Assembly (NCBI RefSeq): GCF_001202025.1
Contig: NZ_LGHS01000068.1
Location: 1-35,974 of the forward strand
Length of the DNA: 35,974 nt
Reading direction: 5' to 3'
Source: Pseudorhodobacter aquimaris
GTDB lineage: Bacteria; Pseudomonadota; Alphaproteobacteria; Rhodobacterales; Rhodobacteraceae
In this document: positions 7,502 through 32,902 of the stretch, piece by piece
Position numbering within the stretch: the first letter of the stretch is position 1
How the letters are laid out: the number at the start of each line of letters is the position of its first letter
The notes under the pieces: model-generated
What the model saw: the letters and a program-made list of their open reading frames with translations, nothing else
Database searches by the model: none
Told to the model about the DNA's origin: nothing
Translations under genes and position numbers: made by a program

Positions 7502-7514
7502 TTTCTTACCTCAC

Positions 7515-12260: not shown

Positions 12261-12308
12261 AAAAAATGTAACACCCCGAATATCATACCAAAAATATGTT
12301 ATATTGTG

Positions 12309-12329
12309 TTTTGAAAAAATATTTCAAAA
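12309..12329. promoter_or_regulatory. Perfect inverted repeat, likely BhcR operator upstream of bhcA
   Basis: TTTTGAAA-AAATA-TTTCAAAA is a perfect 8-5-8 inverted repeat, about 60 bases before the bhcA start. Its 15-base core TGAAAAAATATTTCA has the same length and symmetry as the classical IclR operator (TGGAAATNATTTCCA) and agrees with it at most fixed outer positions. This supports recognition by the IclR-family protein encoded next door; binding is inferred. Confidence 0.55.
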
Positions 12330-12388
12330 AAATTGAGCCGGTGCGCAACTCCCCCTAGTCTTATCGCAACCCTATGGAGGAGAATGTC

Positions 12389-13582
12389 ATGACCTTTCAA
12401 AATCCGGTCTTTATTCCCGGCCCCACCAATATGCCGGAAGCGATCCGTCAAGCCTGCTATATGCCAACGATAGATCATCGCTCTCCTGTATTTGGCAAGA
12501 TTTTACATCCCTGCCTTGAGGGCGTGGGAAAGGTTCTGAAATCGAACAGCGCCAAGATTTTCATCTTTCCGTCGACGGGAACAGGCGGCTGGGAAACAGC
12601 CTTGACGAACACGCTGAGCAAGGGCGACAAAGTTCTGGCCGCGCGCAATGGTATGTTCAGTCACCGTTGGATTGATATGTGCCAACGTCACGGGCTGGAT
12701 GTGCAAGTCATTGAGACCCCGTGGGGCGACGGCCTGCCAGCCGACAAATATGAAGAAATTCTGCGCGGCGATAAATCCCACAGTATCAAGGTTGTTTTGG
12801 CCACGCATAATGAGACCGCAACTGGCGTGAAGTCCGATATTGCGGCCATGCGCCGGGCGTTGGACGCGGCAAACCATCCTGCGATGCTCTATGTAGATGG
12901 GGTATCCTCTATTGGTTCGATGGATTTCCGGATGGATGAGTGGGGCGTTGATATTGCGGTGACCGGCAGCCAGAAGGGTTTCATGCTGCCCGCAGGCCTT
13001 GCGATTGTCGGTTTTTCCGAAAAGGCGATGAAGGCCGTGGAAACCGCGACCCTGCCGCGTACTTTTTTTGATGTGCGTAATATGGCCAAAGGCTATGGCA
13101 ATAACGCCTATCCCTATACGCCGCCGGTCGGTCTGATGAATGGTCTCAAGGCGTCATTGGCGATGATTGAGGCCGAGGGGCTGGAAAATGTCTTTGCCCG
13201 TCATACCCGCATAGCCGAGGGCGTGCGCCGTGCGGTGGACGCTTGGGGATTGACGCTTTGTGCGACGTCGCCGGATGTTTATTCCGATACCGTTTCCGCC
13301 ATTTGCACGCCCGAAGGTTTCAATGCGACCGATATCGTGACGGTTGGCGCACGCGATTATGACATGGCCTTTGGTGTCGGCTTGGGGGAGGTTGCGGGCA
13401 AACTGTTCCGCATCGGCCATCTTGGCAGCCTGACCGATGCGATGATGCTCTCGGGGTTGGCGACGGCGGAAATGGTGATGGTGGACCTTGGGCTGGATAT
13501 CACGCTTGGGTCCGGTGTTGCGGCGGCGCAGGAGTATTACCGTCTTGGGTCGGGTAAATCCAAACGTATCGCGGCGGAGTGA
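12389..13582 (+). CDS. bhcA: BhcA, aspartate-glyoxylate aminotransferase
   Basis: The 397-aa protein is a fold-type I, class V PLP aminotransferase of the serine-glyoxylate/alanine-glyoxylate type: FIPGPTNMPEAIRQA at the N-terminus, STGTGGWETAL for cofactor phosphate, VDGVSSIGSMDF with Asp170 for the pyridine ring, and GSQKGFMLPAG with the PLP-binding Lys196. In the beta-hydroxyaspartate cycle BhcA transfers the amino group of aspartate to glyoxylate, giving oxaloacetate and glycine. The ATG at 12389 is chosen because GGAGGAGA lies just upstream; an ATG at 12374 would bury that site in the gene. It is first in the bhcABCD operon and five bases before bhcB. The specific substrate follows from the four-gene context. 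Confidence 0.92.
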   Translation: MTFQNPVFIPGPTNMPEAIRQACYMPTIDHRSPVFGKILHPCLEGVGKVLKSNSAKIFIFPSTGTGGWETALTNTLSKGDKVLAARNGMFSHRWIDMCQRHGLDVQVIETPWGDGLPADKYEEILRGDKSHSIKVVLATHNETATGVKSDIAAMRRALDAANHPAMLYVDGVSSIGSMDFRMDEWGVDIAVTGSQKGFMLPAGLAIVGFSEKAMKAVETATLPRTFFDVRNMAKGYGNNAYPYTPPVGLMNGLKASLAMIEAEGLENVFARHTRIAEGVRRAVDAWGLTLCATSPDVYSDTVSAICTPEGFNATDIVTVGARDYDMAFGVGLGEVAGKLFRIGHLGSLTDAMMLSGLATAEMVMVDLGLDITLGSGVAAAQEYYRLGSGKSKRIAAE

Positions 13583-13586
13583 GATT

Positions 13587-14540
13587 ATGTATATCCCCAC
13601 ACTCGCCGATATGCTGGTCGCGCATGAACGGATCAAACCCTATATCCACCGCACGCCTGTTCTGGCCTCGCAATACCTCAATGATCTGACGGGGGCCGAG
13701 CTGTTTTTCAAATGTGAGAACCTGCAAAAAGCCGGTGCCTTCAAGGCGCGAGGCGCGTCCAACGCCGTGTTTGGCCTGACCGAGGAACAGGCCGCCAAAG
13801 GCGTTGCCACCCATTCCAGCGGCAATCACGGGACGTGCTTGTCCTATGCCGCGGGTCGGCGGGGCATTCCTTGCACCGTGGTCATGCCCCGCACCGCGCC
13901 TCAGGCCAAGAAAGAAGCCGTGCGCGGTTATGGCGGCCGTGTGGTGGAATGTGAGCCGTCAACCACCAGCCGTGAGGCGGTCTTTGCCGAGGTGGTGGCG
14001 GAGACGGGCGCGGAATTTGTGCATCCCTATAATGATCCGCGTGTGATCGCGGGACAGGCGACCTGTTCAAAGGAGCTGATCGAGCAGGCGCAGGGCCTTG
14101 ATGCGGTGATCGCCCCCATCGGGGGGGGCGGTATGGTTTCGGGCACTTGCCTGACGCTGTCCAACCTTGCGCCGCAGATCAAGATTTATGCCGCCGAACC
14201 GGAACAGGCCGATGATGCCTATCGCAGCTTCAAGGCCGGTCATATCATTGCCGATGACGCGCCGGTGACGGTGGCCGATGGGCTGAAGGTGCCGCTAAAG
14301 GATCTGACGTGGCATTTCGTGCAAAGCCACGTCACCGATATTCTGACGGCCTCGGACCAAGAGATCATCGACGCGATGTTATTGATCTGGAAGCGGATGA
14401 AGATCGTGATGGAGCCGTCGAGCGCTGTACCTTTGGCGACCATTCTCAAGAACAAAGAGATTTTCGCGGGCAAGCGCGTGGGCGTGATTATCACCGGGGG
14501 CAATGTCGATCTCGACCTGCTTCCCTGGCAGCAGAAGTGA
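13587..14540 (+). CDS. bhcB: BhcB, beta-hydroxyaspartate dehydratase
   Basis: This 317-aa fold-type II PLP enzyme belongs to the threonine/serine dehydratase family. It shows FKCENLQKAGAFKARGA with the PLP Lys53, SSGNHG at 77-82 holding the substrate carboxylate, and the glycine-rich phosphate loop IGGGGMVSG at 178-186. In the cycle it dehydrates (2R,3S)-beta-hydroxyaspartate to iminosuccinate. The ATG at 13587 lies just after the bhcA stop; longer frames reaching back into bhcA are ignored. Family membership alone would suggest a serine/threonine/hydroxyaspartate dehydratase; the neighbours bhcA, bhcC and bhcD make the hydroxyaspartate role very likely. Confidence 0.92.
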   Translation: MYIPTLADMLVAHERIKPYIHRTPVLASQYLNDLTGAELFFKCENLQKAGAFKARGASNAVFGLTEEQAAKGVATHSSGNHGTCLSYAAGRRGIPCTVVMPRTAPQAKKEAVRGYGGRVVECEPSTTSREAVFAEVVAETGAEFVHPYNDPRVIAGQATCSKELIEQAQGLDAVIAPIGGGGMVSGTCLTLSNLAPQIKIYAAEPEQADDAYRSFKAGHIIADDAPVTVADGLKVPLKDLTWHFVQSHVTDILTASDQEIIDAMLLIWKRMKIVMEPSSAVPLATILKNKEIFAGKRVGVIITGGNVDLDLLPWQQK

Positions 14541-14550
14541 GGGCAAAAGT

Positions 14551-15714
14551 ATGAATACAGATACAAATTTTGATAACTATGAGGTCGGTTACGACATTCC
14601 CGCCAAGCCCGGTATGGATGAGGCGGATATCCAGACGCCGTGCCTGATCCTCGATCTGGATGCGCTGGAACGGAACGTGAAAAAGATGGGTGACTATGCC
14701 AAAGCCCACGGTATGCGTCATCGCGCGCATGGCAAAATGCACAAGTCGGTCGATGTTTTGAAGCTGCAAATGGAGATGGGCGGGGCGATCGGCGTTTGCT
14801 GTCAGAAAGTGTCAGAGGCTGAAGTGTTTGCGCGCGCGGGCATCAAGGAGATCCTCGTATCCAATCAGGTGCGGGAGGCGGCCAAGATCGACCGTCTGGC
14901 GCGGATGCCGAAACTTGGGGCAAATGTAATTGTCTGTGTCGATGACGTGGCCAATATCGCCGATCTGTCGGCGGCCGTACAAAAACATGGGACCGAGCTG
15001 GGCGTGTTCATCGAGATTGACTGCGGCGCGGGCCGTTGCGGCGTCAAGACGACCGAGGCCGTGGTTGAAATCGCCAAGGCCGCAGCCGCCGCGCCGGGGC
15101 TGACGTACCGCGGTATTCAGGCCTATCAAGGCGCAATGCAGCATATGGACAGCTTTGATGATCGTAAGGCCAAGCTTGATGCGGCCATCGCGCAGGTTTC
15201 CGATGCCGTTGAGGCATTGAAAGCCGAGGGGTTGGAAACCGAACTGGTTTCCGGCGGGGGCACGGGTTCCTATTACTTCGAGAGCAATTCAGGGATTTAT
15301 AATGAATTGCAGTGTGGTTCCTATGCCTTCATGGATGCCGATTATGGCCGTATTCACGACCAGGATGGCAAGCGCATCGATCAGGGCGAATGGGAAAACG
15401 CGTTGTTTATTCTGACCAGCGTGATGAGCCATGCAAAGCCCGATAAAGCCATTGTTGATGCGGGCCTCAAGGCGCAATCGATTGACAGCGGTCTGCCGTT
15501 CATCTTTGGCCGCGACGATGTGAAATATATCAAATGCAGCGACGAACACGGTGTTGTTGAGGATCCTGACGGGGCGCTGAAGGTGAATGACAAGCTGCGC
15601 TTGGTGCCGGGCCACTGTGACCCGACGTGCAACGTGCATGACTGGTATGTCGGTGTGCGCGGCGGCAAGGTGGAAACGGTCTGGCCGGTCTCGGCGCGCG
15701 GCAAGGCCTATTGA
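14551..15714 (+). CDS. bhcC: BhcC, beta-hydroxyaspartate aldolase
   Basis: The 387-aa protein belongs to the D-threonine aldolase/D-serine dehydratase (alanine-racemase-like TIM barrel, fold-type III) family. The PLP-lysine region is HRAHGKMHKS (Lys62 by position). Family motifs include DCGAGRCGV, VSGGGTGSYYFE and a C-terminal metal-binding segment GHCDPTCNVHDWY. BhcC condenses glyoxylate with glycine to (2R,3S)-beta-hydroxyaspartate, the carbon-joining step of the cycle. The start at 14551 lies ten bases after the bhcB stop, with a weak upstream ribosome site. It has full family length with no lesion, and its codon use looks like that of its neighbours. Confidence 0.93.
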   Translation: MNTDTNFDNYEVGYDIPAKPGMDEADIQTPCLILDLDALERNVKKMGDYAKAHGMRHRAHGKMHKSVDVLKLQMEMGGAIGVCCQKVSEAEVFARAGIKEILVSNQVREAAKIDRLARMPKLGANVIVCVDDVANIADLSAAVQKHGTELGVFIEIDCGAGRCGVKTTEAVVEIAKAAAAAPGLTYRGIQAYQGAMQHMDSFDDRKAKLDAAIAQVSDAVEALKAEGLETELVSGGGTGSYYFESNSGIYNELQCGSYAFMDADYGRIHDQDGKRIDQGEWENALFILTSVMSHAKPDKAIVDAGLKAQSIDSGLPFIFGRDDVKYIKCSDEHGVVEDPDGALKVNDKLRLVPGHCDPTCNVHDWYVGVRGGKVETVWPVSARGKAY

Positions 15715-15778
15715 TTGCCCCTAGCGGGATGGTTTGAGCAGATAAAGGGCAGGGCTCGGCCTTGCAGAAGGGATGTCT

Positions 15779-16744
15779 ATGTGGATTGTACCAGAGGCGA
15801 AGATTGCCGATTTGATGGATCGGGCGACCTGTTTTACGGCAATCGAAGGGGTGTTTGCCGCGATGTCGCGCGGCGATGCCTATAACTTTCCGGTCATCCG
15901 CGAGTCTATTGGCCATGCTGATGCGCTTTATGGGTTCAAGTCGGGGTTTGACCGGCAGGGATTGGCGTTGGGCCTTAAATCCGGGGGCTATTGGCCCGGC
16001 AATGAGGCCAAGGGGCTGACCAACCACCAGTCCACCGTTGTCTTGTTCGATGCAGATACCGGCAAGGTAAAGGCGCTGGTCGGCGGGAACCTGTTGACAG
16101 CCCTGCGCACGGCTGCGGCTTCTTCGGTCTCTATCCGCCATTTGGCGCGTGAGGACGCCAAGGTTTTGGGCATGGTCGGCGCGGGGCACCAATCCGCCTT
16201 CCAGATGCGGGCCGCGGTGGAACAGCGCCAGTTTGAAAAGGTCGTGGGCTGGAACCTTCATCCTGAAATGCTCGACCGCCTTGCCAATACCGCCCAAGAG
16301 CTGGGCCTGCCGTTTGAGGCCGTCAGCCTAGACGAGCTGGGCGCGCAATCGGATGTGATCATCACGATTACCTCCAGCTTTGATCCGATTTTACATGCCG
16401 CACAGATCAAACCCGGCACGCATATCGCCTGCATGGGCACGGACACCAAGGGCAAGCAAGAAGTAGGCGCCGATCTGGTGGCGCGCGCGACGGTGTTTAC
16501 CGATGAGGTCGCGCAGGCGATCAGCATCGGTGAATGTCAACACGCCATTGCCAGCGGTGTTCTGGCCGAGACTGATATTGCCGAACTCGGCGCCGTGATC
16601 AACGGCACCCACAAAGGTCGCAGCAGCGTCGAAGAGGTAACGCTGTTTGATGGCACCGGTGTTGGCTTGCAGGATCTGGCCGTGGCGGCGGCGGTGGTTG
16701 ATCTGGCCATTACCAAAGGTGTCGCAATCGAAGTGGATTTCTAA
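15779..16744 (+). CDS. bhcD: BhcD, iminosuccinate reductase
   Basis: The 321-aa protein is of the ornithine cyclodeaminase/mu-crystallin family. It has an N-terminal dimerisation and substrate part with GLKSGGYWPGN and HQSTVVLFDADTG, and a Rossmann NAD(P) site VLGMVGAGHQSAFQ (about 128-141). In the cycle it reduces iminosuccinate to aspartate, regenerating the amino donor for BhcA. The ATG at 15779 is preferred because AGAAGGG lies six bases before it; an ATG six bases earlier would sit directly on that site. A 64-base gap after bhcC holds no gene. The family also contains cyclodeaminases and other imine reductases; the operon decides the role. Confidence 0.9.
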   Translation: MWIVPEAKIADLMDRATCFTAIEGVFAAMSRGDAYNFPVIRESIGHADALYGFKSGFDRQGLALGLKSGGYWPGNEAKGLTNHQSTVVLFDADTGKVKALVGGNLLTALRTAAASSVSIRHLAREDAKVLGMVGAGHQSAFQMRAAVEQRQFEKVVGWNLHPEMLDRLANTAQELGLPFEAVSLDELGAQSDVIITITSSFDPILHAAQIKPGTHIACMGTDTKGKQEVGADLVARATVFTDEVAQAISIGECQHAIASGVLAETDIAELGAVINGTHKGRSSVEEVTLFDGTGVGLQDLAVAAAVVDLAITKGVAIEVDF

Positions 16745-20169: not shown

Positions 20170-20670
20170 CTATTCGGACGCGGAAAACTGGCCGTATTTC
20201 CCTTGGGTAAACACCAAAGGCGCGCCTGCATTTCGGACACAGCGCAAGACGCGGCCCACGATGATCAGGTGATCCCCGCCATCATGGGTGGCATGTTGCA
20301 CACAGTCAAACCGTGCCAGCGCGCCTGCGATCAGGGGCACCCCCTCGGCGTTGTGATGATAGGATATGCCCTCAAACCCCGGCCCTCCACGAATGAATCG
20401 CGGGATCAAATCACCCTGGGCCGCGGTCAGAACATGAATGGCAAAGTGCCGCGCGCCTGCAAAATGCGTGAAACGAGAGGACCGCTTGGCAGGTGACCAC
20501 AGCACCAGCGGCGGCTCCATCGACAGGCTGGCAAAGCTGTTGGCGGTAAATCCCATCGGCGTGTGTTCCCCCGCAATCGTGACAATCGTCACCCCGGTCG
20601 CAAAGCAGCCCAAAGCATCGCGAAATGCGCGGGCGTTGCTGGCGTCGGGGATAAAGTTCTGTTCTGTCAT
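20170..20670 (-). CDS. Flavin reductase-domain protein (HpaC/FMN-binding type)
   Basis: The 166-aa protein has the flavin reductase-like split-barrel domain: FRDALGCFATGVTIVTIAG, GFTANSFASLSMEPPLVLWS, RFTHFAGARHFAIHVL and HHNAEGVPLIAGALARFDC, ending in LVFTQGKYGQF. Such proteins supply reduced FMN/FAD to a two-component monooxygenase, or bind FMN themselves. The ATG at 20670 is preferred over 20736 because GGAGACGAA precedes it and the domain follows directly. It lies downstream of a LysR gene on the same strand (147 bases). No partner monooxygenase is in the window. Confidence 0.85.
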   Translation of the reverse strand: MTEQNFIPDASNARAFRDALGCFATGVTIVTIAGEHTPMGFTANSFASLSMEPPLVLWSPAKRSSRFTHFAGARHFAIHVLTAAQGDLIPRFIRGGPGFEGISYHHNAEGVPLIAGALARFDCVQHATHDGGDHLIIVGRVLRCVRNAGAPLVFTQGKYGQFSASE

Positions 20671-20816
20671 TTCGTCTCCGTCGGGCGGTGGAATGTCTTT
20701 TGTCGCCCTTTGGGCCTGCAGGTTTGGCGCGACCATATGGCCAAGCCGTTAACGGGAACAGCCCTTGGCCGCGTCTTTGTGCGAAATAAGGTGATTATCA
20801 GACAAGGCAACGCCAA

Positions 20817-21773
20817 TCAGCGATAGGTCCGCACAGAAAGGGATGTTTGTTCCAAGGTGGTTTGCAGCAGCGAGAGCAACCCTACCTCGGCCTGGTTCAT
20901 GGTGCGTTTGGGATTGGTCACAACATGAATGTCGATCGCAGGCAGGCCAGTATAGGGCGGCAGTTGCCACAAAAGGCCTTGGGCCACATCGCGGCGCGCC
21001 ACATGCACCGGCAGTGCGCCAATACCGAGGTTAGAGATGATCATCCGCCGCACCTCTGGCAAGCTGGACGATATCCCCTTCAGCCCCGGTCGCAGCCCCA
21101 GTTGCGCGCGCAAAGCAGCCACGCCAAACAGCGGGCCATTCGCCTCATCCGTTTGAAATGACACCGCATACTCGTCATGCAACTCTGACACAGCAATATC
21201 CTTGCGGCCAAAGAGCCTGTGTTTCGGGCCGCAATAAAATCCGAAATATTCACGGTAGAGGATGCGTTGGTCCAGCTTGCGGGTGTTGTCCTCCAGCAAA
21301 CATATCCCCAAAGTGACGCGGTTTTGCTGTACATAGGCCAGCACCTCGGCGCTTTCGACGGTTGAAAAGCTATAGGTGACCTGCGGGTGGTCCGCATTAA
21401 ACTGTTCCAGCACCGTATCAAAATGGGAAGAGACAACATGGCTGGCCACGGCGATGCTGATATGGCCGGTCACCTCGTCATCCATACCGCTCATCAGATT
21501 GGGCAGTTGTGAGATGGTGCCAAAAACCGAGCGCGCCTCGGCGTAAAGCACCTGACCAAGCGGCGTCACGCTGAAATGTGTGGGGGAGCGGTTGATAAGC
21601 TTGCGCCCAAAGCTGTCCTCCAGCCGCATAAGGGCCGCAGAGATGGTGGGCTGCTTTAGCCCCAGAAAATTCGCGGCAGGTGTGATACCGCCCTCATCCA
21701 CAACCACCATAAAAGTGCGCAGCAGATTCCAGTCCAATTGCCAGGGCAGACGCTGTTCATATTTTCTAAGCAT
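20817..21773 (-). CDS. LysR-family regulator, divergent from the amino-acid ABC transporter
   Basis: The 318-aa protein has a LysR DNA-binding domain (about 13-72; WNLLRTFMVVVDEGGITPAA, LGLKQPTISAALMRLEDSFG) and a C-terminal effector domain (about 100-310). It is transcribed away from the substrate-binding protein gene across about 134 bases containing a LysR-like palindrome, so it probably controls the transporter-catabolic operon. The flavin reductase gene follows on the same strand. The effector is unknown; the transported amine or amino acid is the natural candidate. Confidence 0.88.
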   Translation of the reverse strand: MLRKYEQRLPWQLDWNLLRTFMVVVDEGGITPAANFLGLKQPTISAALMRLEDSFGRKLINRSPTHFSVTPLGQVLYAEARSVFGTISQLPNLMSGMDDEVTGHISIAVASHVVSSHFDTVLEQFNADHPQVTYSFSTVESAEVLAYVQQNRVTLGICLLEDNTRKLDQRILYREYFGFYCGPKHRLFGRKDIAVSELHDEYAVSFQTDEANGPLFGVAALRAQLGLRPGLKGISSSLPEVRRMIISNLGIGALPVHVARRDVAQGLLWQLPPYTGLPAIDIHVVTNPKRTMNQAEVGLLSLLQTTLEQTSLSVRTYR

Positions 21774-21907: not shown

Positions 21908-22693
21908 ATGACAATGATCACAAACATCCTTCGCCGCAGCGTCCTTGCAGGCGGAATCGCCGCCTTGGGCCTGACCCTTGCCCCCGCCGCCTTTGCGGAT
22001 GAACTGGAGGGTTTGAAAGAGCGCGGCGTCATGAAGATTGCGATGACAGGCCAATATCCGCCCTTCAATTTCGTGAACGACCAGAATGAGGTCGTCGGCT
22101 TTGACCCGGCAATCGGCGCAGAGATTGCCAAGCGCATGGGCATCGAGGTTGAAGTGGTGACAACCGCCTGGGACGGGATCATCGGCGGGTTGCTGGCCAA
22201 TAAGTTCGATGCTGTTGTCGGTTCCATGTCGATCACGGCAGAGCGGGAAAAGGTGATTGATTTCGTCGGCCCCTATTACAACACAAAACGCGCGTTTTTC
22301 ACTGTGGCGGGCTCGGATATCACCACGCTGGAACAACTGGATGATGCGGTTGTGGGCCTGACTTTGGGCGAAACCCACGACGAATGGGCCCGCGCGCAGG
22401 GCTATAACGTGAAAACCTATAAGGGTCTGCCAGAGTTGCTTATGGAGCTGACAAACGGTCGGATCGACGTGGTGATCAACGATTCCATTCCTGTTTTGCT
22501 GGCGATGAAAAGCGGGCAATATGATCTGGCTGAAATTCCGGCACCAGATGCAGAAAAATTCCCCGCTGGTATCGCCATCCGCAAAGGCAACCCCGAACTG
22601 AAAGCAGCCATGCAAGCGGCGCTGGATGAGATGATGGAAGACGGCACCTATCTGGAGATTGCGAACGAATGGGTCGGCGGCGACATCCGCTAA
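21908..22693 (+). CDS. Periplasmic substrate-binding protein of a polar amino-acid ABC transporter
   Basis: The 261-aa protein has a signal peptide (about 1-30, RRSVLAGGIAALGLTLAPAA then FA-DE) and a family 3 solute-binding domain: GVMKIAMTGQYPPFNFVNDQ, VVGFDPAIGAEIAKRMGIEV, FDAVVGSMSITAEREKVIDF and GRIDVVINDSIPVLLAM. These proteins bind amino acids, opines or related amines. The ATG at 21908 follows GGGAGAG. It is the first gene of an operon with two permeases and an ATPase, separated from the first permease by a strong hairpin. The ligand cannot be told from sequence; the downstream enzymes point to a non-standard amino acid. Confidence 0.9.
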   Translation: MTMITNILRRSVLAGGIAALGLTLAPAAFADELEGLKERGVMKIAMTGQYPPFNFVNDQNEVVGFDPAIGAEIAKRMGIEVEVVTTAWDGIIGGLLANKFDAVVGSMSITAEREKVIDFVGPYYNTKRAFFTVAGSDITTLEQLDDAVVGLTLGETHDEWARAQGYNVKTYKGLPELLMELTNGRIDVVINDSIPVLLAMKSGQYDLAEIPAPDAEKFPAGIAIRKGNPELKAAMQAALDEMMEDGTYLEIANEWVGGDIR

Positions 22694-22783: not shown

Positions 22784-23431
22784 ATGGATATTGACCTGAT
22801 CCTTCGCGTCTACCCTTTCTTTATCGAAGCGGCGTGGGTCACGATTGAATTGTCAGTTCTGACCACAATTCTAGGGCTTACTTGCGGGGCCTTGGGGGCA
22901 GCCGCCCGGCTGTCGCGCAATGTCGTATTGCGGGCAATAGGGGCGGTATATGTCAGCGTCTTTCGTGGCACCCCTGCGCTGATCCAACTGTTTATCCTCT
23001 ATTTCGGGGGGCCGCAGATCGGCATCAATCTGGATGCCTTTGATGCGGGGGTGATCGGGCTGGGGGTCAATATCGGCGCCTATATGACCGAGACCATGCG
23101 GGGGGCCATTATTTCCGTCAACAAGGGCCAGACAGAGGCCGCGCGCACGCTTGGCATGTCACGTTGGGAAACCATGCGCAAAGTTGTCCTGCCGCAGGCC
23201 ATGCGCATGATGATCCGTCCCTTGGGTGTGAATATCAACGCGCTGATCAAGGGCACGGCGCTGGTGGCTGCCATTTCGGTGGTGGAATTGACCTATACCG
23301 CGCAGCGCTACATCGGGTCGACCTATAAACCTTTTGAGATGTTCTTGCTGTCTGGCGTTTTGTACATGGTCATCATCTATATCGTCGGTCATGGCATTTC
23401 ATGGCTGGACCGCAAGGCGCGGATCGTATGA
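22784..23431 (+). CDS. Amino-acid ABC transporter permease (first)
   Basis: The 215-aa His/Glu/Gln/Arg/opine-family permease has about five membrane helices, the N-terminal motif FIEAAWVTIELSVLTTILGL, FRGTPALIQLFILYFGGPQI, and the cytoplasmic EAA loop EAARTLGMSRWETMRKVVLP that docks on the ATPase. The ATG at 22784 is chosen over 22733: the earlier one would start two bases after the hairpin, and AAAGGG precedes 22784. The pair with the next gene forms a heterodimeric channel. Confidence 0.9.
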   Translation: MDIDLILRVYPFFIEAAWVTIELSVLTTILGLTCGALGAAARLSRNVVLRAIGAVYVSVFRGTPALIQLFILYFGGPQIGINLDAFDAGVIGLGVNIGAYMTETMRGAIISVNKGQTEAARTLGMSRWETMRKVVLPQAMRMMIRPLGVNINALIKGTALVAAISVVELTYTAQRYIGSTYKPFEMFLLSGVLYMVIIYIVGHGISWLDRKARIV

Positions 23432-23452: not shown

Positions 23453-24109
23453 ATGGGACTTGATTTTAGCGTCGTGCCCGGCTATTTCGGCGTGCTTTTG
23501 CAGGGCATGGCATGGACGGTGGCCATCACCTTAGGTGCCGGTATCCTATCGTTTTTCGGCGGTATCATATTTGCCGTGGCCGCACTTTATGCGCCTTGGT
23601 TCATTCGCCTGCCGATGCGCCTGTTTGCATGGCTGTTTATGGGTACACCGCTGTTGTTGCAATTGTTCCTGATCTATTTCGGGCTGATCCAGATCGGGAT
23701 CGACCTGCCGGCCTTCGTCGCGGGCATCATCGGCTTGGGGCTGCATTTTGCGGTCTATAACTCGGAATTGATCCAATCATCGATTTTGGCGGTGGATAAG
23801 GGCCAATATGAGGGCGCGCGCACCCTTGGCCTTTCGCGTGGGCAAACCCTGCGCCAGATCATTATTCCGCAGGCGGTCCATGCGGTTATCCCGCCGATGG
23901 GCAACAATATGATCGCCCTGCTCAAGGATTCCGCGCTGGTGTCCGTGATCGGCGTGATGGAGCTGACGCTGGCCGCGCAGCAATCCATCAGCCGCACCTA
24001 CCGGCCCTTTGAATTCTACATCGCCGCTGCTTTTTGCTATTACATCATCAACCTCGCGCTGGAGGCTGGCTTGCGCCGGCTGGAACGTCGCATAGCCGCT
24101 TCGCGTTAA
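23453..24109 (+). CDS. Amino-acid ABC transporter permease (second)
   Basis: The 218-aa permease is of the same family as the preceding gene, with about five membrane helices, MGTPLLLQLFLIYFGLIQIG, and the EAA-type loop EGARTLGLSRGQTLRQIIIP near residues 120-140. GGGGAG precedes the ATG. It is 21 bases after the first permease and 15 bases before the ATPase. Two permease genes with one ATPase and one binding protein is the standard arrangement for polar amino-acid uptake. Confidence 0.9.
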   Translation: MGLDFSVVPGYFGVLLQGMAWTVAITLGAGILSFFGGIIFAVAALYAPWFIRLPMRLFAWLFMGTPLLLQLFLIYFGLIQIGIDLPAFVAGIIGLGLHFAVYNSELIQSSILAVDKGQYEGARTLGLSRGQTLRQIIIPQAVHAVIPPMGNNMIALLKDSALVSVIGVMELTLAAQQSISRTYRPFEFYIAAAFCYYIINLALEAGLRRLERRIAASR

Positions 24110-24124: not shown

Positions 24125-24895
24125 ATGAGATCATCCGCCTTTGTGGAAATCAAGAATGCCGCCAAAAGTTTTGGTACTTTGCAGGTGTTGCGTGACATTA
24201 ACCTGAGCGTGGAACGTGGGCAGATCGTGGCCATCATCGGGCCTTCAGGGTCGGGTAAATCCACCCTTCTGCGCGCGATAAATGAGCTGGACCCGCTGAC
24301 CTCGGGGGAGGTCTGGCTGGAGGGTGTGCAGATCAACCGCCAACTGCCACCGCGCCAATATGAAAAACACGTCAATCAGGTGCGCCAAAACATCGGAATG
24401 GTGTTCCAACATTTCAACCTGTTTCCGCATCTGACCGTGCGCGGCAATATCACGCTTGCGCCGCGGATGCTGAAAGGCATCAGCGAGGCCGATGCGAATG
24501 CGCTGGCCGAAGAGCAGCTGACCAAGGTCGGTCTGTTGGAAAAAATCGATGAATACCCCTCGCGGCTTTCGGGTGGTCAGAAACAGCGCGTGGCAATCGC
24601 GCGCGCCTTGGCGATGAAGCCGAAGGTGATGCTGTTTGACGAGGCGACATCCGCCCTTGACCCCGAATTGGTCGAGGAGGTCAATCAGGTCATGAAGCAG
24701 CTGGCCGAGGAACATATGACCATGATCATCGTGACCCATGAGATGGATTTCGCGGCCTCGGTCTGTGATCGGGTGATCTTTATGGATGGTGGCGTGGTGG
24801 TCGAAGAAGGCCCGCCAAGTGTGCTGTTCAAAAACCCGCAAGAGGAACGCACCCGCAACTTCCTGCGCAAACATCTTGCACGCAACGGGGACTAA
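24125..24895 (+). CDS. Amino-acid ABC transporter ATP-binding protein
   Basis: The 256-aa protein has the full ABC ATPase set: Walker [13 protein letters not shown] (about 39-50), Q-loop [17 protein letters not shown], signature [15 protein letters not shown], Walker [15 protein letters not shown] and the switch His in [10 protein letters not shown]. It is of the GlnQ/HisP type. A good ribosome site (AAGGAGG) precedes the ATG. The stop is one base before the aminotransferase ATG, tying uptake and catabolism into one message. Confidence 0.94.
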
Positions 24896-24896
24896 G

Positions 24897-26228
24897 ATGT
24901 CAAACCTGTTCTATCAGACCAAATCGCCCCGTCCGATGCTGGACAGGGCGCAGGGCATCTATATGTGGGATGTCGATGGTAAACGCTATATCGACGGGTC
25001 GTCGGGGGCGATGGTGTCGAACCTCGGGCATTCCGACCCTGACGTGCTGGCGGCGATGCGCGCGCAGATGGACAAGTCGACATTCGGTTACCGGCTGCAT
25101 TTTCAGACCGAAAGCTCTGAGGATCTGGCGCGCAAAGCCGCCGCCCTTGCGCCTGAAGGTCTGAACAAGGTGTTCTTTGTTTCCGGCGGGTCCGAGGCGG
25201 TGGAAAGCACGTTGAAACTGGCGCGGCAATATGTGGTGACGCAGGGCCAGCCGCAACGGTACAAGGTGATTTCGCGCTATCCGTCCTATCACGGCTGTAC
25301 CTTGGGCGCTTTGGCGATCACCGGCTATGCGCCGATGGCGGCCCCCTTTGACCCGATGATGCAGCGGATGCCGAAAATTCCCGCGCCGCGCGCCTATCTT
25401 GACGGTTTGGATGCGGATGATCCGGCGACGGGCCTGCATTACGCCAACATGCTGGAGGCGGCTATTTTGCAAGAAGGCCCCGAGACCGTTATGGCCTTTG
25501 TGGTGGAACCTGTCGGCGGGGCCTCTACCGGGGCATTGGTGCCGCCTGCGGGCTATATGCAGCGGATCCGTGAGATTTGTACCCAATATGGTGTGTTATT
25601 GATCCATGATGAGGTGATGACAGGCGGCGGCCGGACGGGGCGGTTTTTTGGCGCCGAACATTGGGGCACGGTGCCGGATCTGATCGCGCTCTCCAAGGGT
25701 TTCGGCTCTGGCTATGCGCCCTTGGGGGCAATGGTTGCGCGGGATGATATTGTTAAGGCCGTGATGCAAAGCGGCGGTTTCATCCATGGTTTCACCTATG
25801 CGGGCAACCCTTTGGCCTGTGCGGCGGGGGCGGCGGTGCTGGACCAGATCGCCAAGCGTGACCTTGTGGGCAATGCGGCGCGGATGGGTGAGGTGCTACA
25901 AAACCGGCTGGAAGGCTTGATGCAACGCTACGCCCTGATCGGGGATGTGCGGGGCAAGGGCCTGATGACCGCGTTTGAATTGATGGCCGACCGCGCGACC
26001 AAAGCACCGCTTGATCCGGCGCTGAATGCCCATGCGCGGCTGGTCGATATTGCCTATGACAACGGGTTGATCATCTATTCGCGGCGCACGCGAGGTGGGA
26101 CCTCGGGCGATCACTTCCTTGTCTGCCCGCCGCTGATCACAACCGAGACACAGGTTGATGAGATCACCGAGATCCTCGACCGTTCCCTTGCGCAATATAT
26201 GGCCGAACTGCCCGCAAAGGTGGCTTGA
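24897..26228 (+). CDS. Class III (omega/beta-amino acid) PLP aminotransferase
   Basis: The 443-aa fold-type I class III aminotransferase shows MWDVDGKRYIDGSSGAMVSN at the N-terminus, FVSGGSEAVESTLKLARQY for cofactor binding, the YPSYHG segment, LLIHDEVMTGGGRTGRFFG with the ring-binding Asp, and LIALSKGFGSGYAPLGAM with the PLP lysine. This class acts on amino groups away from the alpha carbon, such as beta-alanine, GABA, diamines or taurine. It is coupled to the ABC ATPase upstream and the BKACE gene one base downstream. Making a beta-keto acid for BKACE from a beta-amino acid is the natural reading, by inference. Confidence 0.88.
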   Translation: MSNLFYQTKSPRPMLDRAQGIYMWDVDGKRYIDGSSGAMVSNLGHSDPDVLAAMRAQMDKSTFGYRLHFQTESSEDLARKAAALAPEGLNKVFFVSGGSEAVESTLKLARQYVVTQGQPQRYKVISRYPSYHGCTLGALAITGYAPMAAPFDPMMQRMPKIPAPRAYLDGLDADDPATGLHYANMLEAAILQEGPETVMAFVVEPVGGASTGALVPPAGYMQRIREICTQYGVLLIHDEVMTGGGRTGRFFGAEHWGTVPDLIALSKGFGSGYAPLGAMVARDDIVKAVMQSGGFIHGFTYAGNPLACAAGAAVLDQIAKRDLVGNAARMGEVLQNRLEGLMQRYALIGDVRGKGLMTAFELMADRATKAPLDPALNAHARLVDIAYDNGLIIYSRRTRGGTSGDHFLVCPPLITTETQVDEITEILDRSLAQYMAELPAKVA

Positions 26229-26229
26229 G

Positions 26230-27156
26230 ATGTCAAAAATCATTATCACCTGTGCGGTGACGGGATCCATTCACACCCCGTCGATGTCGCCTTATCTGCC
26301 GATCACACCGGATGAGATTACAGAAAACGCCGTGGATGCCGCCGCTGCGGGTGCCGCGATTTTGCATCTGCATGCCCGCGATCCGCTGGATGGCCGACCG
26401 TCATCCGCGCCGGAACATTTCATGGCTTTCCTGCCAAGGATCAAACAAGCCACCGATGCGGTGATCAATATCTCGACCGGCGGTAGCGCCACGATGACGT
26501 TGGACCAAAGGCTTGCGGCCCCGAAACTGGCCGCGCCCGAGATGTGCTCGTTGAATATGGGCACGATGAATTTCGCGCTTTATCCCGCAGCCGACCGGAT
26601 TACCGACTGGAAATTTGATTGGGAAAAGCCGTTTTTGGAGAATTCCGACGATCTGGTTTTCAAAAACACACCCCGCGATATGGCGCATGTGATGGAACAA
26701 ATGGGCGCGCAGCGCGGTGGCCGCTTCGAGTTTGAATGCTATGATGTCAGCCATCTTTATATGCTGCGTCATTTTGTAGATCGCGGGTTGGTGAAGGCGC
26801 CGCTGTTTATCCAGTTTGTCTTTGGCGTGCTGGGCGGGATCGGGCCGGACCCTGAAAACCTGACACATATGAAGCTGATCGCGGATAAGCTTTTCGGGCA
26901 GGATTACACGTTTTCGGTGCTTGCGGCGGGTCGTCACCAGATCCCGCTGATCACCATGTCGGCGATTTTGGGCGGACATGTGCGTGTCGGACTGGAAGAC
27001 AGCTTGATGATCTCACGCGGTGTTTTGGCGAAATCCAATGCCGAACAAGTCACCAAGATCCGCCGCATCGTCGAAGAGCTGGGCCGCGAAGTTGCCACAC
27101 CAACAGAGGCGCGCGCGATACTGCAATTAAAAGGCGCCGACCGGACGACGATGTGA
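26230..27156 (+). CDS. Beta-keto acid cleavage enzyme (BKACE, DUF849/Kce family)
   Basis: The 308-aa TIM-barrel enzyme of the BKACE family has the metal-binding HLHARD with His46 and His48, the numbering known for the lysine-fermentation enzyme Kce, and a C-terminal ILGGHVRVGLEDS (Glu256) matching the third ligand region. Other motifs are VINISTGGSATMTLDQRL and FVFGVLGGIGPDPENL. BKACEs react a beta-keto acid with acetyl-CoA to give acetoacetate and a shorter acyl-CoA. The substrate varies among subfamilies and cannot be fixed by eye. The ATG at 26230 lies directly after the aminotransferase stop. Confidence 0.9.
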   Translation: MSKIIITCAVTGSIHTPSMSPYLPITPDEITENAVDAAAAGAAILHLHARDPLDGRPSSAPEHFMAFLPRIKQATDAVINISTGGSATMTLDQRLAAPKLAAPEMCSLNMGTMNFALYPAADRITDWKFDWEKPFLENSDDLVFKNTPRDMAHVMEQMGAQRGGRFEFECYDVSHLYMLRHFVDRGLVKAPLFIQFVFGVLGGIGPDPENLTHMKLIADKLFGQDYTFSVLAAGRHQIPLITMSAILGGHVRVGLEDSLMISRGVLAKSNAEQVTKIRRIVEELGREVATPTEARAILQLKGADRTTM

Positions 27157-27599
27157 TGCGTATTTACCCTGTCACCAAGGCTGATATCCCTATGCTGCAT
27201 CAGGCTCTTGCCCAGCTTTCGCAGGATTTGGGCGATCAGCATATGGCCAGCCTTGCGGCATTGACGGCGGCCGCGCCTTTGTGGCGGGCCATTCTGGCGG
27301 TAGATGAGGCCCCAAAGGGCGCGCTTTTGGCGACGCCTTTGTTTTCGACGACGCGGGGTGGCGTCGGGCTTTATGTTTCCGATCTTTGGGTTTCGGCCGA
27401 GGCGCGGGGGCAAGGCTTGGGCCAACGCTTGTTGTCGGCGGCTTTGCAGCAATGGCGCCCAGTTTTCATAAAGCTCTCGGTTTATGACGATAATACGCGC
27501 GGACGGGCGTTTTACGAGCGGGCGGGATTTGTCGCCCAGGACGAAACCAATATGATTTTGCAGGGGGCGGCACTGGATCGCCTGAAAGGACAGCCATGA
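27156..27599 (+). CDS. GNAT-family N-acetyltransferase
   Basis: The 147-aa GNAT domain shows GVGLYVSDLWVSAEARGQGL with the acetyl-CoA pyrophosphate loop (ARGQGLGQRL), then KLSVYDDNTRGRAFYERAGF and a final beta strand. The ATG at 27156 shares one base with the BKACE stop (TGATG); a GTG at 27153 is an alternative. The stop overlaps the next gene by four bases. It is co-encoded with a deacetylase-fold protein, so the acceptor is probably an amine in the same pathway or its toxic intermediate; the acceptor is unknown. Confidence 0.82.
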   Translation: MRIYPVTKADIPMLHQALAQLSQDLGDQHMASLAALTAAAPLWRAILAVDEAPKGALLATPLFSTTRGGVGLYVSDLWVSAEARGQGLGQRLLSAALQQWRPVFIKLSVYDDNTRGRAFYERAGFVAQDETNMILQGAALDRLKGQP

Positions 27600-28615
27600 A
27601 AGCGATATTTGACGATCGGCAGTGGAAGCATCAGCCCAAGAATTTTATGGCCAACGGGGCGCTCTTGCCCAACCCCGAGCAGCCGGAACGGATTGACCGG
27701 CTTTTGGCCGGCGCCAAGGCTGCGGATTGTACAGTGCAGGCCCCTAAGGATGCAGGGCTTGGCCCGATTGCGGCAATCCATTCGGCGGAATATCTGACAT
27801 TCTTGCAAAATATCTATACGCGTTGGCAGCGGATTGAGGGTGCCGGCGCGGAGGTAATCCCCAATATTCACCCTGCGAACCGGACGGATAGCTATCCGAA
27901 ATCCGCGATTGGGCAGGCGGGTTTTCACCAAGCCGATACTGCTTGCCCTATTGCAAGCGGCACATGGGAGGCCGCCTACTGGTCAGCCCAGACTGCGATC
28001 ACGGGTGCGGATCTTTTGGAAACCGAACGCGCCGTCTATGCGCTGTCACGTCCGCCGGGGCATCATGCCTTTGGTGATCTTGCAGGGGGGTTTTGCTTTT
28101 TGAACAATTCAGCCATCGCGGCTGAAAGGCTTTTGTCGCAGGGAAAGCGGCCCGTAATTCTGGATGTGGATGTCCATCACGGTAATGGCACCCAAGGCAT
28201 TTTCTACCATCGGCGCGACGTGTTGACAGTCTCGCTCCACGCTGATCCTGTACGGTTTTACCCGTTTTTCTGGGGTCATGGCCATGAACGGGGTGAGGGT
28301 GCCGGATTGGGATACAACCTCAACCTTTGTTTAGACCGGGGCACGGATGATGCGGGCTATTTGGCGGCATTGGATGTGGCCTTGCAGCAAATCCGCAGTT
28401 TTGGCGCGGATGCGGTGGTGGTTGCCTTGGGTCTGGATGCATTTGTTGATGACCCGTTCAAGGGACTTGCCGTGACGACCGAGGGGTTTGGTCGAATTGG
28501 TGCTGCAATTGCCGGTCTGGGCCTGCCAACCCTTTTCGTGCAAGAAGGCGGGTATCTGTGCAAAGAGCTTGGCGATAATCTGACCAGTACCTTGACCGGA
28601 TTTGAAGGTGCGTGA
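27596..28615 (+). CDS. Histone-deacetylase-fold amidohydrolase (acetylpolyamine amidohydrolase-like)
   Basis: The 339-aa arginase/deacetylase-fold protein contains ALSRPPGHHAFGDLAGGFCF (catalytic His pair), VILDVDVHHGNGTQGIFYHR (Zn ligands Asp and His), LGLDAFVDDP (third Zn ligand Asp) and VQEGGY with the transition-state Tyr. All catalytic residues seem present. Bacterial members of this class remove acetyl or other acyl groups from amines such as acetylpolyamines. The N-terminus MKAIFDDRQWKHQPKNFM also resembles acetylpolyamine amidohydrolases. ATGA overlap with the GNAT gene shows tight coupling. It is the last gene of the operon, converging on flagellar block B with 12 bases between. Confidence 0.88.
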   Translation: MKAIFDDRQWKHQPKNFMANGALLPNPEQPERIDRLLAGAKAADCTVQAPKDAGLGPIAAIHSAEYLTFLQNIYTRWQRIEGAGAEVIPNIHPANRTDSYPKSAIGQAGFHQADTACPIASGTWEAAYWSAQTAITGADLLETERAVYALSRPPGHHAFGDLAGGFCFLNNSAIAAERLLSQGKRPVILDVDVHHGNGTQGIFYHRRDVLTVSLHADPVRFYPFFWGHGHERGEGAGLGYNLNLCLDRGTDDAGYLAALDVALQQIRSFGADAVVVALGLDAFVDDPFKGLAVTTEGFGRIGAAIAGLGLPTLFVQEGGYLCKELGDNLTSTLTGFEGA

Positions 28616-30057: not shown

Positions 30058-30833
30058 GGTGCCACCAAATATGGATTGGCAAGATATGCATCAAATGCAG
30101 TCATCCAAAGGCTCAACATAAGGGGTGTCGCGACTGCCATCAAAACAAGGCCGCCCAAGGTTAGCGCAGGCGCGCCAACAAGAACCACCATCAATTGTGG
30201 CATAGCCCGGTTGATGACACCAAGCGCGATATTGTAGATCACCGATGCCGCAAGAAAGGGGGCCGCCATTGAAAACGCCAAGGAAAAGGCCGTGCGTATC
30301 TGCGAGACACCCCAATCCGACATGATGGAGCTGTCGGGAAAGACACCGAAGGGCAGCACATTATAGGAGAGGATCAAGACCTCGGCCACGCGAACATGCA
30401 GGCCCGATACGACTGCCAGCGCTAGGCCCGCCATCACAAAAACATGCGATATTGCAGGCTGTGGTTCCGCACCTTGCCCGCCAAAGAGTTGCGAGAGAGA
30501 GGTCGATTGCGCGACCAGCGTCCCGGCGATTTGAAGGGCAAACACAAACATTCGGAACCCGATTCCAAGCGCCAAACCCGCAACAGCCTCTGTCGCAAGC
30601 GGGAGTGTAAAACCCTCCTCTATTCCAGGCGCCTGTGCGACGACGGCGGGCGCAATGATCATTGTAAAGCAAACAGTCAAGGCTAGGCGAACACGCTGAG
30701 GAACGGATTGCTCACCAAATGCAGGGAGCAGCGCCATCACAGCGCCCACCCGGACGAAAACCAGAAAAGTGGCCCAAAGCCAACTTTCCGTTTGGTTTGT
30801 CGCGGCAAGTAGACCGTTCAGCAAGTCGGTCAT
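30054..30833 (-). CDS. fliR: Flagellar export gate protein FliR
   Basis: The 259-aa protein has about six membrane helices and FliR features: FLVFVRVGAVMALLPAFGEQ, VPQRVRLALTV, FRMFVFALQIAGTLVAQSTS and INRAMPQLMVVLVGAPALTL. FliR joins FliP and FliQ in the helical export gate. It lies between flhA and flhB with four-base overlaps on both sides. Length is normal. Confidence 0.95.
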   Translation of the reverse strand: MTDLLNGLLAATNQTESWLWATFLVFVRVGAVMALLPAFGEQSVPQRVRLALTVCFTMIIAPAVVAQAPGIEEGFTLPLATEAVAGLALGIGFRMFVFALQIAGTLVAQSTSLSQLFGGQGAEPQPAISHVFVMAGLALAVVSGLHVRVAEVLILSYNVLPFGVFPDSSIMSDWGVSQIRTAFSLAFSMAAPFLAASVIYNIALGVINRAMPQLMVVLVGAPALTLGGLVLMAVATPLMLSLWMTAFDAYLANPYLVAP

Positions 30834-32902
30834 ACGGGAACTTGCCCTATCATCGCGGCCCGCACTTCCAACCCGATTTCGTCGTAAGAAAGAACCGGCG
30901 TCGTTAACCCTTTGGTCCCCAAAACGGTGCGCAGAAACCGGCGCCGCAGAGTAGAGGTGACAAGGGCAGGCTGCACCCCGGTTTCAGCCGCTTTGTTAAG
31001 CTTTTCGGCAAGATTGTTTGCCAAGCGGTTGAATTGCTCTGGTGGAAGGGCAACATCGCGCTGTCCCTTTTCGCCATCAATTTGATAGGTGGAAAATTGG
31101 GTTTCCCACTCGGGCGCAAGCTGGATCAAGGGGACAGTACCGTCTTCACGGCGCAGGCCCGCGACCAGCTGGAACCCCAGCCGTTGGCGAACATGCTCAA
31201 CGATTGTTTCCGGGGAACCCATACCGCGGGCCTCTGCTATTGCTTCCAGGATCAGCGGCAGGTTGCGAATGGATACACGCTCTTCCAGAAGCAGTCGCAA
31301 AACGGCAAGCAAAAGGTCGACGGGCACCTTGTCGGGCACAAGTTCATCCAGCAAGCGGCGGTTTGCCTCGGCGCGAACGGGGTCGGAAAGGTTGACGAAT
31401 TCATCCATTAACCGGCGCAGACCGCGCAGGCTGAGCAGACGAGACAGATTGTTCTTGAGAACTTCAAGCAAATGCGTCGCCAAAACCTCTGTCGGAGAAA
31501 CAACGGTAAAGCCGATAATCGAGGCGTCCTCTTGCGCGTCAGGGGGAATCCAGCGGGCCGGCGCGCCGTAAACCGGTTCGCGAACATCCATCCCGTCTGG
31601 CGCAGGCAGGTCATCGGACAGCAAGGCAAGAACCCGATCAGGGAACAGCCGGTCGCGGACTTGCTCGACGCCTTGCAATCGAATGCGGTAAGTGCCCGGC
31701 GGCAGTGCAGCTTCATCGGTCAAGCGAATCTCAGGCAGGATCAGACCGAAAGAACTGGCGATATGGTTGCGCATATTCGCAATCCGGACGTCAAGACCTG
31801 TTGCCGGGTCCAGTACCATCGCCACAAGATCGGGTGCAAATTCAATGTGGATATCATCAAAATCAAGGACATCACCAAGGCGCTTTTCCGCAGCGGGTGC
31901 AGGGGTTTCAACGTCCTCTGAGGGCTGTCGTGCAGCGGCACCCGCAACCCAATAGGCAGCCCCACCCAGTATGAGCGCACCAGTCATGAAGGGAAGAAAA
32001 GGCAAGCCGGGCACCAGTGCGAACAGCGCCAGCAAGAATGCCACGGTTGCTAGTGCGCCCGGGTAACGACCCAGCTGCGCAAAAAAGGATACGTCTGCCG
32101 CGCCGACTGCCCCGCCACGCGCCAACAAAAGTGCGGCGGCGATAGAGATGACAACAGCCGGAATTTGGCTGACAAGCCCGTCACCGATGGTCAAGATGGC
32201 ATATGTCTCAAAGGCCTGACCAAGCGGCATGCCATGGACCAAGGTGCCCATCACCAGTCCCATGACAATATTGAGCAATGTAATCAACAACCCCGCGACT
32301 GCATCACCTTTCACGAACTTTGAGGCACCGTCGAGAGAACCAAAGAAATTCGTTTCCGCCAGCTCATCCTCACGACGGCGTTTGGCCTCGGCGTGGTCAA
32401 TGGCACCGGCCGACATATCGCTGTCAATCGCAAGCTGCTTGCCGGGCATCCCGTCCAACGCGAACCTTGCACCAACCTCGGCCATGCGGCCTGCACCCTT
32501 GGTGATAACCATGAAGTTCACGATCAAAAGCACGCAGAAGGTCACAACCCCCAGCAGAACAGAGCCGCCCATGATGAAATTGGCAAAGCCCTCAATCACA
32601 TTCCCGGCAGCCGACGTGCCTGTATGCCCTTGGCCAATAATCAGTTTTGTCGACGATACGTTCAGTGCCAGCCGCAGCATCAGTGACGCCAGCAAGATGG
32701 TTGGAAACGCTGAAAATTCCAACGGGCGTTGAATAAACAGGGTGACCGTGAACATCAAGATCGCCAAGGCGAATGAGATAGACAGCCCGATGTCCAGCAT
32801 CCAGGAGGGTACGGGCAGGACCATCATGACGATAACCGCCATCAATGCCAGCGCAAGCAAGATGGTCGGTTGGAAAATCATGCGTAGGTTAAGAGTATTC
32901 AT
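30830..32902 (-). CDS. flhA: Flagellar export protein FlhA
   Basis: The 690-aa FHIPEP-family protein has about eight membrane helices in residues 10-320 and a cytoplasmic domain (about 345-690). The family signature region is FMVITKGAGRMAEVGARFAL followed by GMPGKQLAIDSDMSAG and a RRREDELAETNFFGSLDGAS loop. The C-terminal nonameric ring domain includes VREPVYGAPARWI and SIRNLPLILEAIAEA. FlhA is the proton-using core of the flagellar type III exporter and docks chaperone-substrate complexes. Its ATG overlaps the upstream transglycosylase gene. Confidence 0.96.
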   Translation of the reverse strand: MNTLNLRMIFQPTILLALALMAVIVMMVLPVPSWMLDIGLSISFALAILMFTVTLFIQRPLEFSAFPTILLASLMLRLALNVSSTKLIIGQGHTGTSAAGNVIEGFANFIMGGSVLLGVVTFCVLLIVNFMVITKGAGRMAEVGARFALDGMPGKQLAIDSDMSAGAIDHAEAKRRREDELAETNFFGSLDGASKFVKGDAVAGLLITLLNIVMGLVMGTLVHGMPLGQAFETYAILTIGDGLVSQIPAVVISIAAALLLARGGAVGAADVSFFAQLGRYPGALATVAFLLALFALVPGLPFLPFMTGALILGGAAYWVAGAAARQPSEDVETPAPAAEKRLGDVLDFDDIHIEFAPDLVAMVLDPATGLDVRIANMRNHIASSFGLILPEIRLTDEAALPPGTYRIRLQGVEQVRDRLFPDRVLALLSDDLPAPDGMDVREPVYGAPARWIPPDAQEDASIIGFTVVSPTEVLATHLLEVLKNNLSRLLSLRGLRRLMDEFVNLSDPVRAEANRRLLDELVPDKVPVDLLLAVLRLLLEERVSIRNLPLILEAIAEARGMGSPETIVEHVRQRLGFQLVAGLRREDGTVPLIQLAPEWETQFSTYQIDGEKGQRDVALPPEQFNRLANNLAEKLNKAAETGVQPALVTSTLRRRFLRTVLGTKGLTTPVLSYDEIGLEVRAAMIGQVPV

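Follow-up and report, generated by a model that had tools for sequence, protein, structure and literature searches.

Known systems and the operon of Pseudorhodobacter aquimaris

Catabolism of L-beta-lysine in Pseudomonas B4 was reportedly described by the Barker laboratory in about 1979–1981 as a set of enzymes without genes. The route is said to run through N6-acetylation, an N6-acetyl-beta-lysine transaminase, cleavage of 3-keto-6-acetamidohexanoate to 4-acetamidobutyryl-CoA and deacetylation to 4-aminobutyrate (GABA). To our knowledge, no genes have been assigned to the breakdown of N6-acetyl-beta-lysine, which is described only as enzyme activities. Here we analyse an operon in a 35,974-nucleotide stretch of DNA from Pseudorhodobacter aquimaris (contig NZ_LGHS01000068.1, positions 1 to 35,974; hereafter, the window) that has one gene family for each step of this chemistry: an acetyltransferase, a transaminase, a beta-keto acid cleavage enzyme (BKACE) and a deacylase, all four in one unit. 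A difference lies in the last step, for which the Pseudomonas enzyme was reportedly a combined deacetylase-thiolesterase; we made no match between it and the histone deacetylase (HDAC) fold encoded in the window. We propose that the probable role of the operon is to take up and break down an N-acetylated beta-amino acid, N6-acetyl-beta-lysine being the likeliest candidate, through the aminotransferase, the BKACE and, last, the HDAC-fold enzyme, to give GABA. The proposed substrate is described as an osmolyte of salt-adapted methanogens (PMC1224877).

The operon comprises eight genes on the forward strand. Its importer consists of a solute-binding protein of the amino-acid type (family 3; 21908..22693; PF00497 SBP_bac_3), two ABC permeases (22784..23431, with an alternative start at 22733, and 23453..24109; both PF00528 BPD_transp_1 and over the cut-off of TIGR01726) and an amino-acid-type ABC ATPase (24125..24895; PF00005 ABC_tran; best NCBIfam model GlnQ, below its cut-off). 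The enzymes are a class III aminotransferase (24897..26228; PF00202 Aminotran_3, 4.7e-104), the BKACE (26230..27156; PF05853, 4.4e-110), a GNAT acetyltransferase (27153..27599 from a GTG, or from an ATG at 27156; PF00583, 3.9e-10) and the HDAC-fold deacetylase (27596..28615; PF00850 Hist_deacetyl, 3.9e-67). One base separates the ATPase gene from the aminotransferase gene, and one base the latter from the BKACE gene; the BKACE and GNAT genes overlap by 4 bases or 1, and the GNAT and HDAC genes by 4. A longer open reading frame for the aminotransferase, from 24786, would begin within the ATPase gene. The aminotransferase scores 475.6 bits against NF005685, under the cut-off of 485. The GNAT protein has weak PDB matches, among them a thialysine acetyltransferase (3.8e-6). 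In an alignment to AncQR, residues of the solute-binding protein stand at the positions of the Arg and Asp that bind the amino-acid zwitterion in homologues. A LysR-type regulator gene, divergent on the reverse strand (20817..21773; Pfam HTH_1 and LysR_substrate), is the probable regulator of the operon. The first-pass annotation had described 24125-28615 as an importer running into touching or overlapping genes for these four enzymes; the coordinates and families hold, and the unit is larger upstream, where it takes in the solute-binding protein and both permeases.

A related operon occurs in Bacillaceae. In records of Bacillus velezensis and Cytobacillus spongiae, genes for an aminotransferase, CoA-transferase A and B, a peptidase, ablB and ablA follow one another on one strand, and a Bacillus subtilis record keeps this order as far as ablB, after which comes an ablA homologue that is broken across two frames and absent from the gene list; all three pieces are from records filed as plasmids. 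This operon corresponds to kamA-yodPQRST in B. subtilis. Its order of aminotransferase, two CoA-transferase subunits and M20 peptidase recurs in many relatives of the window operon. The window differs in that a BKACE stands for CoA-transferase and thiolase, an HDAC-fold enzyme for M20, and an unrelated GNAT protein for AblB. The window GNAT protein does not match the model for AblB, and the window genome has no match to that for lysine 2,3-aminomutase. We conclude that the window operon is most likely a form, with BKACE and HDAC, of a module whose Bacillaceae counterpart uses CoA-transferase and M20. According to a survey of pyridoxal phosphate-dependent proteins of B. subtilis, KamA makes L-beta-lysine in vitro, with its role given as undetermined, and a biotin role is guessed for YodT (PMC6522883).

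No title or abstract that we found describes the operon, in a literature search that most subscription journals lay outside. The earlier statement that no pathway with this set had been described is too strong, given the related Bacillaceae operon and the chemistry reported for a beta-lysine-grown Pseudomonas.

Conservation and gene exchange in relatives

To establish how constant the gene set is, we searched 149 genomes of the family to which the window belongs with the HDAC and BKACE proteins. Of these, 34 contain an HDAC match at 57% identity or more and 24 a BKACE match at 66% or more. In 21 of the 24 BKACE carriers, no more than about 2 kb separates the two orthologues (the exceptions are G064, G079 and G091; Fisher P = 7e-14 over the 149 genomes, with relatedness ignored). 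Thirteen HDAC carriers have no such BKACE, so the HDAC gene also occurs outside this operon. The GNAT gene is less constant, being present in 30 of 42 BKACE operons. Thus, the joint inheritance with BKACE on which the first-pass annotation had staked its reading is clear for HDAC and mostly found, with less constancy, for GNAT. The operon set is conserved and widespread, and the earlier view of a single pathway with its own import is supported.

We then compared loci across a wider range. Regions fetched around HDAC, BKACE or aminotransferase orthologues (72) make 73 loci with the window (window and L022–L093); the 53 with an aminotransferase of more than 300 bits were tabulated, and 20 were left out. 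A second set came from an aminotransferase alignment scan of 84,980 species genomes, from which we took the best 80 of at least 576 stretches found under a loose criterion; the two sets share some genomes. The 80 loci are from Alpha-, Beta- and Gammaproteobacteria, Desulfobacterota and Neomarinimicrobiota. Among the 53 loci, the importer is of the amino-acid type in 16, PotABCD in 18 and Liv in 4; the remaining 15 have no importer or none that was recognised. A LysR homologue is present in 37.

The enzyme that follows the aminotransferase comes in two forms. A BKACE is encoded in 42 of the 53 loci, CoA-transferase A and B in 7 (a thiolase shares the strand in six of them) and neither in 4 (L025, L075, L077 and L086, the last with short BKACE, GNAT and amidase fragments that suggest poor sequence). 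CoA-transferase subunits, M20 and thiolase are all over their subfamily cut-offs in L068. On the aminotransferase strand of the 80 further loci, we found CoA-transferase in 43 (with thiolase in 27 of these), BKACE in 28 and neither in 9. The two never stand together on that strand in any of the 133 loci; divergent genes nearby include a BKACE in L211 and L223 and a CoA-transferase in L206. With loci that have neither left out, the aminotransferase tree calls for at least three changes between BKACE and CoA-transferase. Because BKACE, and CoA-transferase with thiolase, both need a beta-keto acid, the aminotransferase should make one. This exchange is the best evidence here for the aminotransferase product. 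The first-pass proposal of transamination to a beta-keto acid that would then be cleaved to acetoacetate and an acyl-CoA is supported.

The deacylase is exchanged in a similar manner. An HDAC-fold enzyme, an M20 deacylase of the ArgE/DapE type or both are encoded in 48 of the 53 loci and 70 of the 80, and the deacylase belongs to the operon core; neither is present in L055, L057, L064, L071 (at a contig end) and L091. The two kinds replace each other, with at least four changes on the aminotransferase tree. HDAC is present in 36 of the 42 BKACE operons and absent from six of the seven CoA-transferase operons, and GNAT is rare beside CoA-transferase (1 of 7 operons in the first set and 4 of 43 in the second). 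One locus, L089, consists only of aminotransferase, CoA-transferase A and B, M20 and thiolase genes.

Some loci depart from these arrangements. Three (L025, L199 and L222) have aminotransferase, GNAT, HDAC and DauA genes with no BKACE between aminotransferase and GNAT. In five others (L036, L037, L046, L049 and L052; L046 being a short contig), BKACE and HDAC genes, with GNAT in four, were found and a linked aminotransferase was not; L037 has DauA and RidA genes in its place, as if a dehydrogenase had replaced the aminotransferase. A second, distant aminotransferase (45% identical to that of the window) lies beside a distant BKACE-family match at about 5515-7571 of G138:C14.

Proposed route and order of steps

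From the observed gene order, gene families, co-inheritance, gene replacement and neighbours in relatives, we infer the reactions, their order and the exact substrate as follows. The importer would take up N6-acetyl-beta-lysine; free beta-lysine might also be used after acetylation at N6 by the GNAT protein. The aminotransferase, a candidate N6-acetyl-beta-lysine transaminase, would convert the 3-amino group to yield 6-acetamido-3-oxohexanoate. From this compound and acetyl-CoA, the BKACE would form acetoacetate and 4-acetamidobutyryl-CoA. Hydrolysis of the CoA ester may fall to a thioesterase encoded elsewhere or to the HDAC-fold enzyme, a putative deacetylase of 4-acetamidobutyrate (or of its CoA ester) that would remove the acetyl group last and release GABA. 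The acetyl group would thereby act as a protecting group that prevents ring closure between the amine and the ketone or thioester. That a single operon encodes both an acetyltransferase and a deacylase fits best with an acetyl group that is added, or retained, while the aminotransferase and BKACE act and that comes off last. Thioesterase genes lie near the aminotransferase gene in 8 of the 53 loci. An import-and-catabolism cluster for carnitine is described with a BKACE and, in the same region, an acyl-CoA thioesterase; the beta-keto acid there comes from carnitine dehydrogenase and not from an aminotransferase (PMC12421898).

The BKACE sequence bears on the order of steps. It scores 367.8 bits against PF05853 (gathering score, 24.8) and 513 bits against NF053538, the model for 3,5-dioxohexanoate:acetyl-CoA acetone transferase, over the cut-off of 430. 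Kce, the 3-keto-5-aminohexanoate cleavage enzyme of lysine fermentation, is of the same family and catalyses the same type of reaction, but the window protein falls under its cut-off (254 bits against 382). Published BKACE groups set enzymes for uncharged substrates apart from those for positively charged ones (PMC4922564), and BKACE15 is described as taking beta-ketohexanoate, 3,5-dioxohexanoate and similar uncharged beta-keto acids (PMC11961710). An acetamido side chain is uncharged and a free amine is charged; judged by its family, the BKACE would fit the acetylated substrate. In the BKACE tree, one branch (support 93) lies between 20 family paralogues and 48 operon-type BKACEs, six of which are from loci without the aminotransferase; Phe228 is found in all 48, against Trp in 19 of the 20 paralogues, and BKACE15 carries Trp at this position. 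Phloroglucinol-type genes, at which the name of NF053538 hints, were not recognised in the operons read, and no targeted search for them was made.

These results bear on the order that the first-pass annotation had favoured, in which the HDAC-fold enzyme acts first and the aminotransferase and BKACE then convert the free diamine to 4-aminobutyryl-CoA. We consider that order very improbable. The nearest characterised relatives of the deacetylase do act on small acetylated amines (PMC4784309, PMC11532494), but early deacetylation would leave the GNAT protein without a purpose, and a free 6-amino-3-oxo acid would, on chemical grounds, be expected to cyclise. The BKACE, which passes the uncharged-substrate model and fails that for Kce, also speaks for the acetylated intermediate, as do the thioesterase genes linked in some relatives and the GABA genes of two loci described below.

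The HDAC-fold enzyme has acetylpolyamine amidohydrolases as its nearest PDB relatives, and shares fold, length and catalytic residues with those of M. ramosa, P. aeruginosa and Marinobacter. Its catalytic and metal-binding residues (H156, H157, D192, H194 and D281) do not vary among 58 homologues, which are from the fetched loci and not all beside an aminotransferase. This relationship, together with the PotD-type importers in 18 of the 53 loci, would suit catabolism of acetylpolyamines, with the HDAC-fold enzyme as polyamine deacetylase and the aminotransferase as a polyamine or GABA transaminase. However, the polyamine-binding Glu106 and Glu117 of the M. ramosa enzyme align with Ile105 and Ala116 in the window; the two positions are acidic in 2 and 0 of the 58 homologues, whereas Glu117 is kept in 7 of 20 controls drawn from other members of the family. 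PsApaH, which also lacks both glutamates, deacetylates polyamines (PMC11532494), so their loss lowers polyamine activity as a prospect without excluding it, and is a hint. It is established chemistry that the common polyamines yield no beta-keto acid for a BKACE. We dropped acetylpolyamine catabolism as our principal explanation on the loss of the glutamates, and regard it as hardly probable. Lys289, near the rim of the HDAC fold, was considered as a carboxylate clamp and rejected, as Lys occurs there in only 14 of the 58 homologues.

Candidate substrates, neighbouring genes and significance

We assign N6-acetyl-beta-lysine because of gene context in other phyla. AblB, a putative beta-lysine N-acetyltransferase, was identified with model TIGR03827 (cut-off 205.1), and the KamA family with TIGR00238. 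The aminotransferase is found in 2 of 245 Neomarinimicrobiota genomes searched, and in both an ablB gene abuts the M20 gene of an operon in the order aminotransferase, two CoA-transferase subunits and M20 (313 bits in L146 and 321 bits in the other). The L146 genome (Ca. Neomarinimicrobiota) has no AblA match; within about 5 kb downstream of its operon are genes resembling GABA transaminase and succinate semialdehyde dehydrogenase, both below cut-offs. In L212, a Desulfuromonadales contig, a GABA transaminase gene over the cut-off lies directly upstream of the aminotransferase gene. With the Bacillaceae operon, these cases keep N-acetyl-beta-lysine, the substrate guessed in the first pass, as the leading candidate. 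In an aminotransferase tree, 38 operon and Bacillaceae proteins lie on one side of a branch and 21 other class III aminotransferases from three genomes on the other (SH-aLRT support, 89). As the window genome has no KamA-family match, its substrate would be imported.

Three further observations concern the same gene families. The gene before the aminotransferase gene in L146 (7802-8968) resembles, by eye, that of a saccharopine-dehydrogenase-type protein and has no NCBIfam match. In L253 (Desulfobacteraceae), the genes of an amino-acid ABC importer lead into ablB (325 bits), the aminotransferase is on another contig and the genome has no AblA over the cut-off. L254, a Desulfobulbaceae contig, has genes for lysine 2,3-aminomutase and lysine 5,6-aminomutase (by eye) and a BKACE-family gene, and resembles a lysine fermentation cluster.

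Several findings weigh against our proposal. The links to AblB, ablA and GABA are found in other phyla, in operons with CoA-transferase and M20 and not with BKACE and HDAC. AblB is over its cut-off in only 3 of 49 genomes searched that have the aminotransferase. A KamA-family match occurs in 12 of 40 operon genomes, in none of them near the operon, and in the loci read we found no KamA beside the operon outside Bacillaceae; that the window genome lacks a match counts here as well. The window GNAT protein is not AblB. Bacillaceae aminotransferases are only 35-38% identical to that of the window, and the support of 89 for their placement falls short of the starred level, in a quickly built tree whose outgroup branches are long. 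In the BKACE tree, five long Kce-like branches join the operon side, and for this reason we do not claim the operon-type BKACEs as a clade. PotABCD-type importers would also fit polyamines. Finally, D-amino-acid genes and extra amidases found in relatives are superfluous to the proposed pathway.

The same chemistry might act on another acetylated beta-amino acid, such as beta-ornithine, a beta-arginine derivative or an analogue bearing a methyl or hydroxyl group; the product would then be 3-acetamidopropionyl-CoA or a similar compound. The gene arguments for an N-acyl beta-keto acid fit other chain lengths, and such a substrate would agree with a GNAT protein that is not AblB and a BKACE unlike its paralogues. 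However, it is for beta-lysine only that genes for synthesis and acetylation, and GABA genes, were found in relatives, and we give these other substrates a minor, if appreciable, chance.

The additional genes of relatives suggest a different kind of substrate. D-amino-acid genes occur in 20 of the 53 loci, in three modules: a DauA-type dehydrogenase, often with RidA (the best PDB match of one such protein is D-arginine dehydrogenase, 1e-78); DgcA/DgcN-like pairs, which are below cut-offs; and alanine racemase accompanied by an amidohydrolase. Fifteen of the loci have a gene of the creatininase or dimethylformamidase type. The dimethylformamidase-like amidase (PF20254) directly precedes the aminotransferase gene in 11 of the 53 (for example, L073 10393-12030), and creatininase-family genes lie between the solute-binding protein and permease genes in L022 (8246-9034), L024, L062 and L090. 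An M19 dipeptidase gene is found in one locus without the aminotransferase. The substrate could then be a conjugate in which an amide bond holds a beta-amino acid and a D-amino acid together. Amidases with linked genes (creatininase-type, dimethylformamidase-type, M19 dipeptidase or M20D-type amidohydrolase) would split the conjugate, and DauA with RidA, the DgcA/DgcN-like proteins or a racemase would handle the D half. None of these D-amino-acid or extra amidase genes is linked to the operon in the window, and several operons, such as L089, lack them, so that a conjugate seems a rather slim prospect for the window. There is a small chance that the operon family as a whole provides a common route for natural products of an undescribed class, N-acylated beta-amino acids joined to D-amino acids. 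That would explain why many relatives carry four unrelated kinds of C–N hydrolase and one of three unrelated D-amino-acid modules, and N6-acetyl-beta-lysine would in that case be no more than the simplest of the substrates, or the product of the first cut.

Other genes of the window lie around the operon. A flavin reductase gene like FerA (20170-20736; 219.6 bits, cut-off 260) adjoins the LysR gene, and a complete beta-hydroxyaspartate cycle cluster occupies 11388-16744, with bhcR on the reverse strand and bhcA, B, C and D, all over their NCBIfam cut-offs. The metabolic genes are flanked by fliF (8082-9731) and flhA (30830-32902); the arrangement looks like a catabolic island within a flagellar cluster.

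If degradation of N6-acetyl-beta-lysine is the function of the window operon, one group of aminotransferases would mark the breakdown route for this compound. The operon family would also provide gene candidates for the enzymes that were reportedly described without genes, and a function for the aminotransferase, CoA-transferase and peptidase genes of Bacillus. It would, in addition, be a case in which HDAC-fold and M20 enzymes replace each other.

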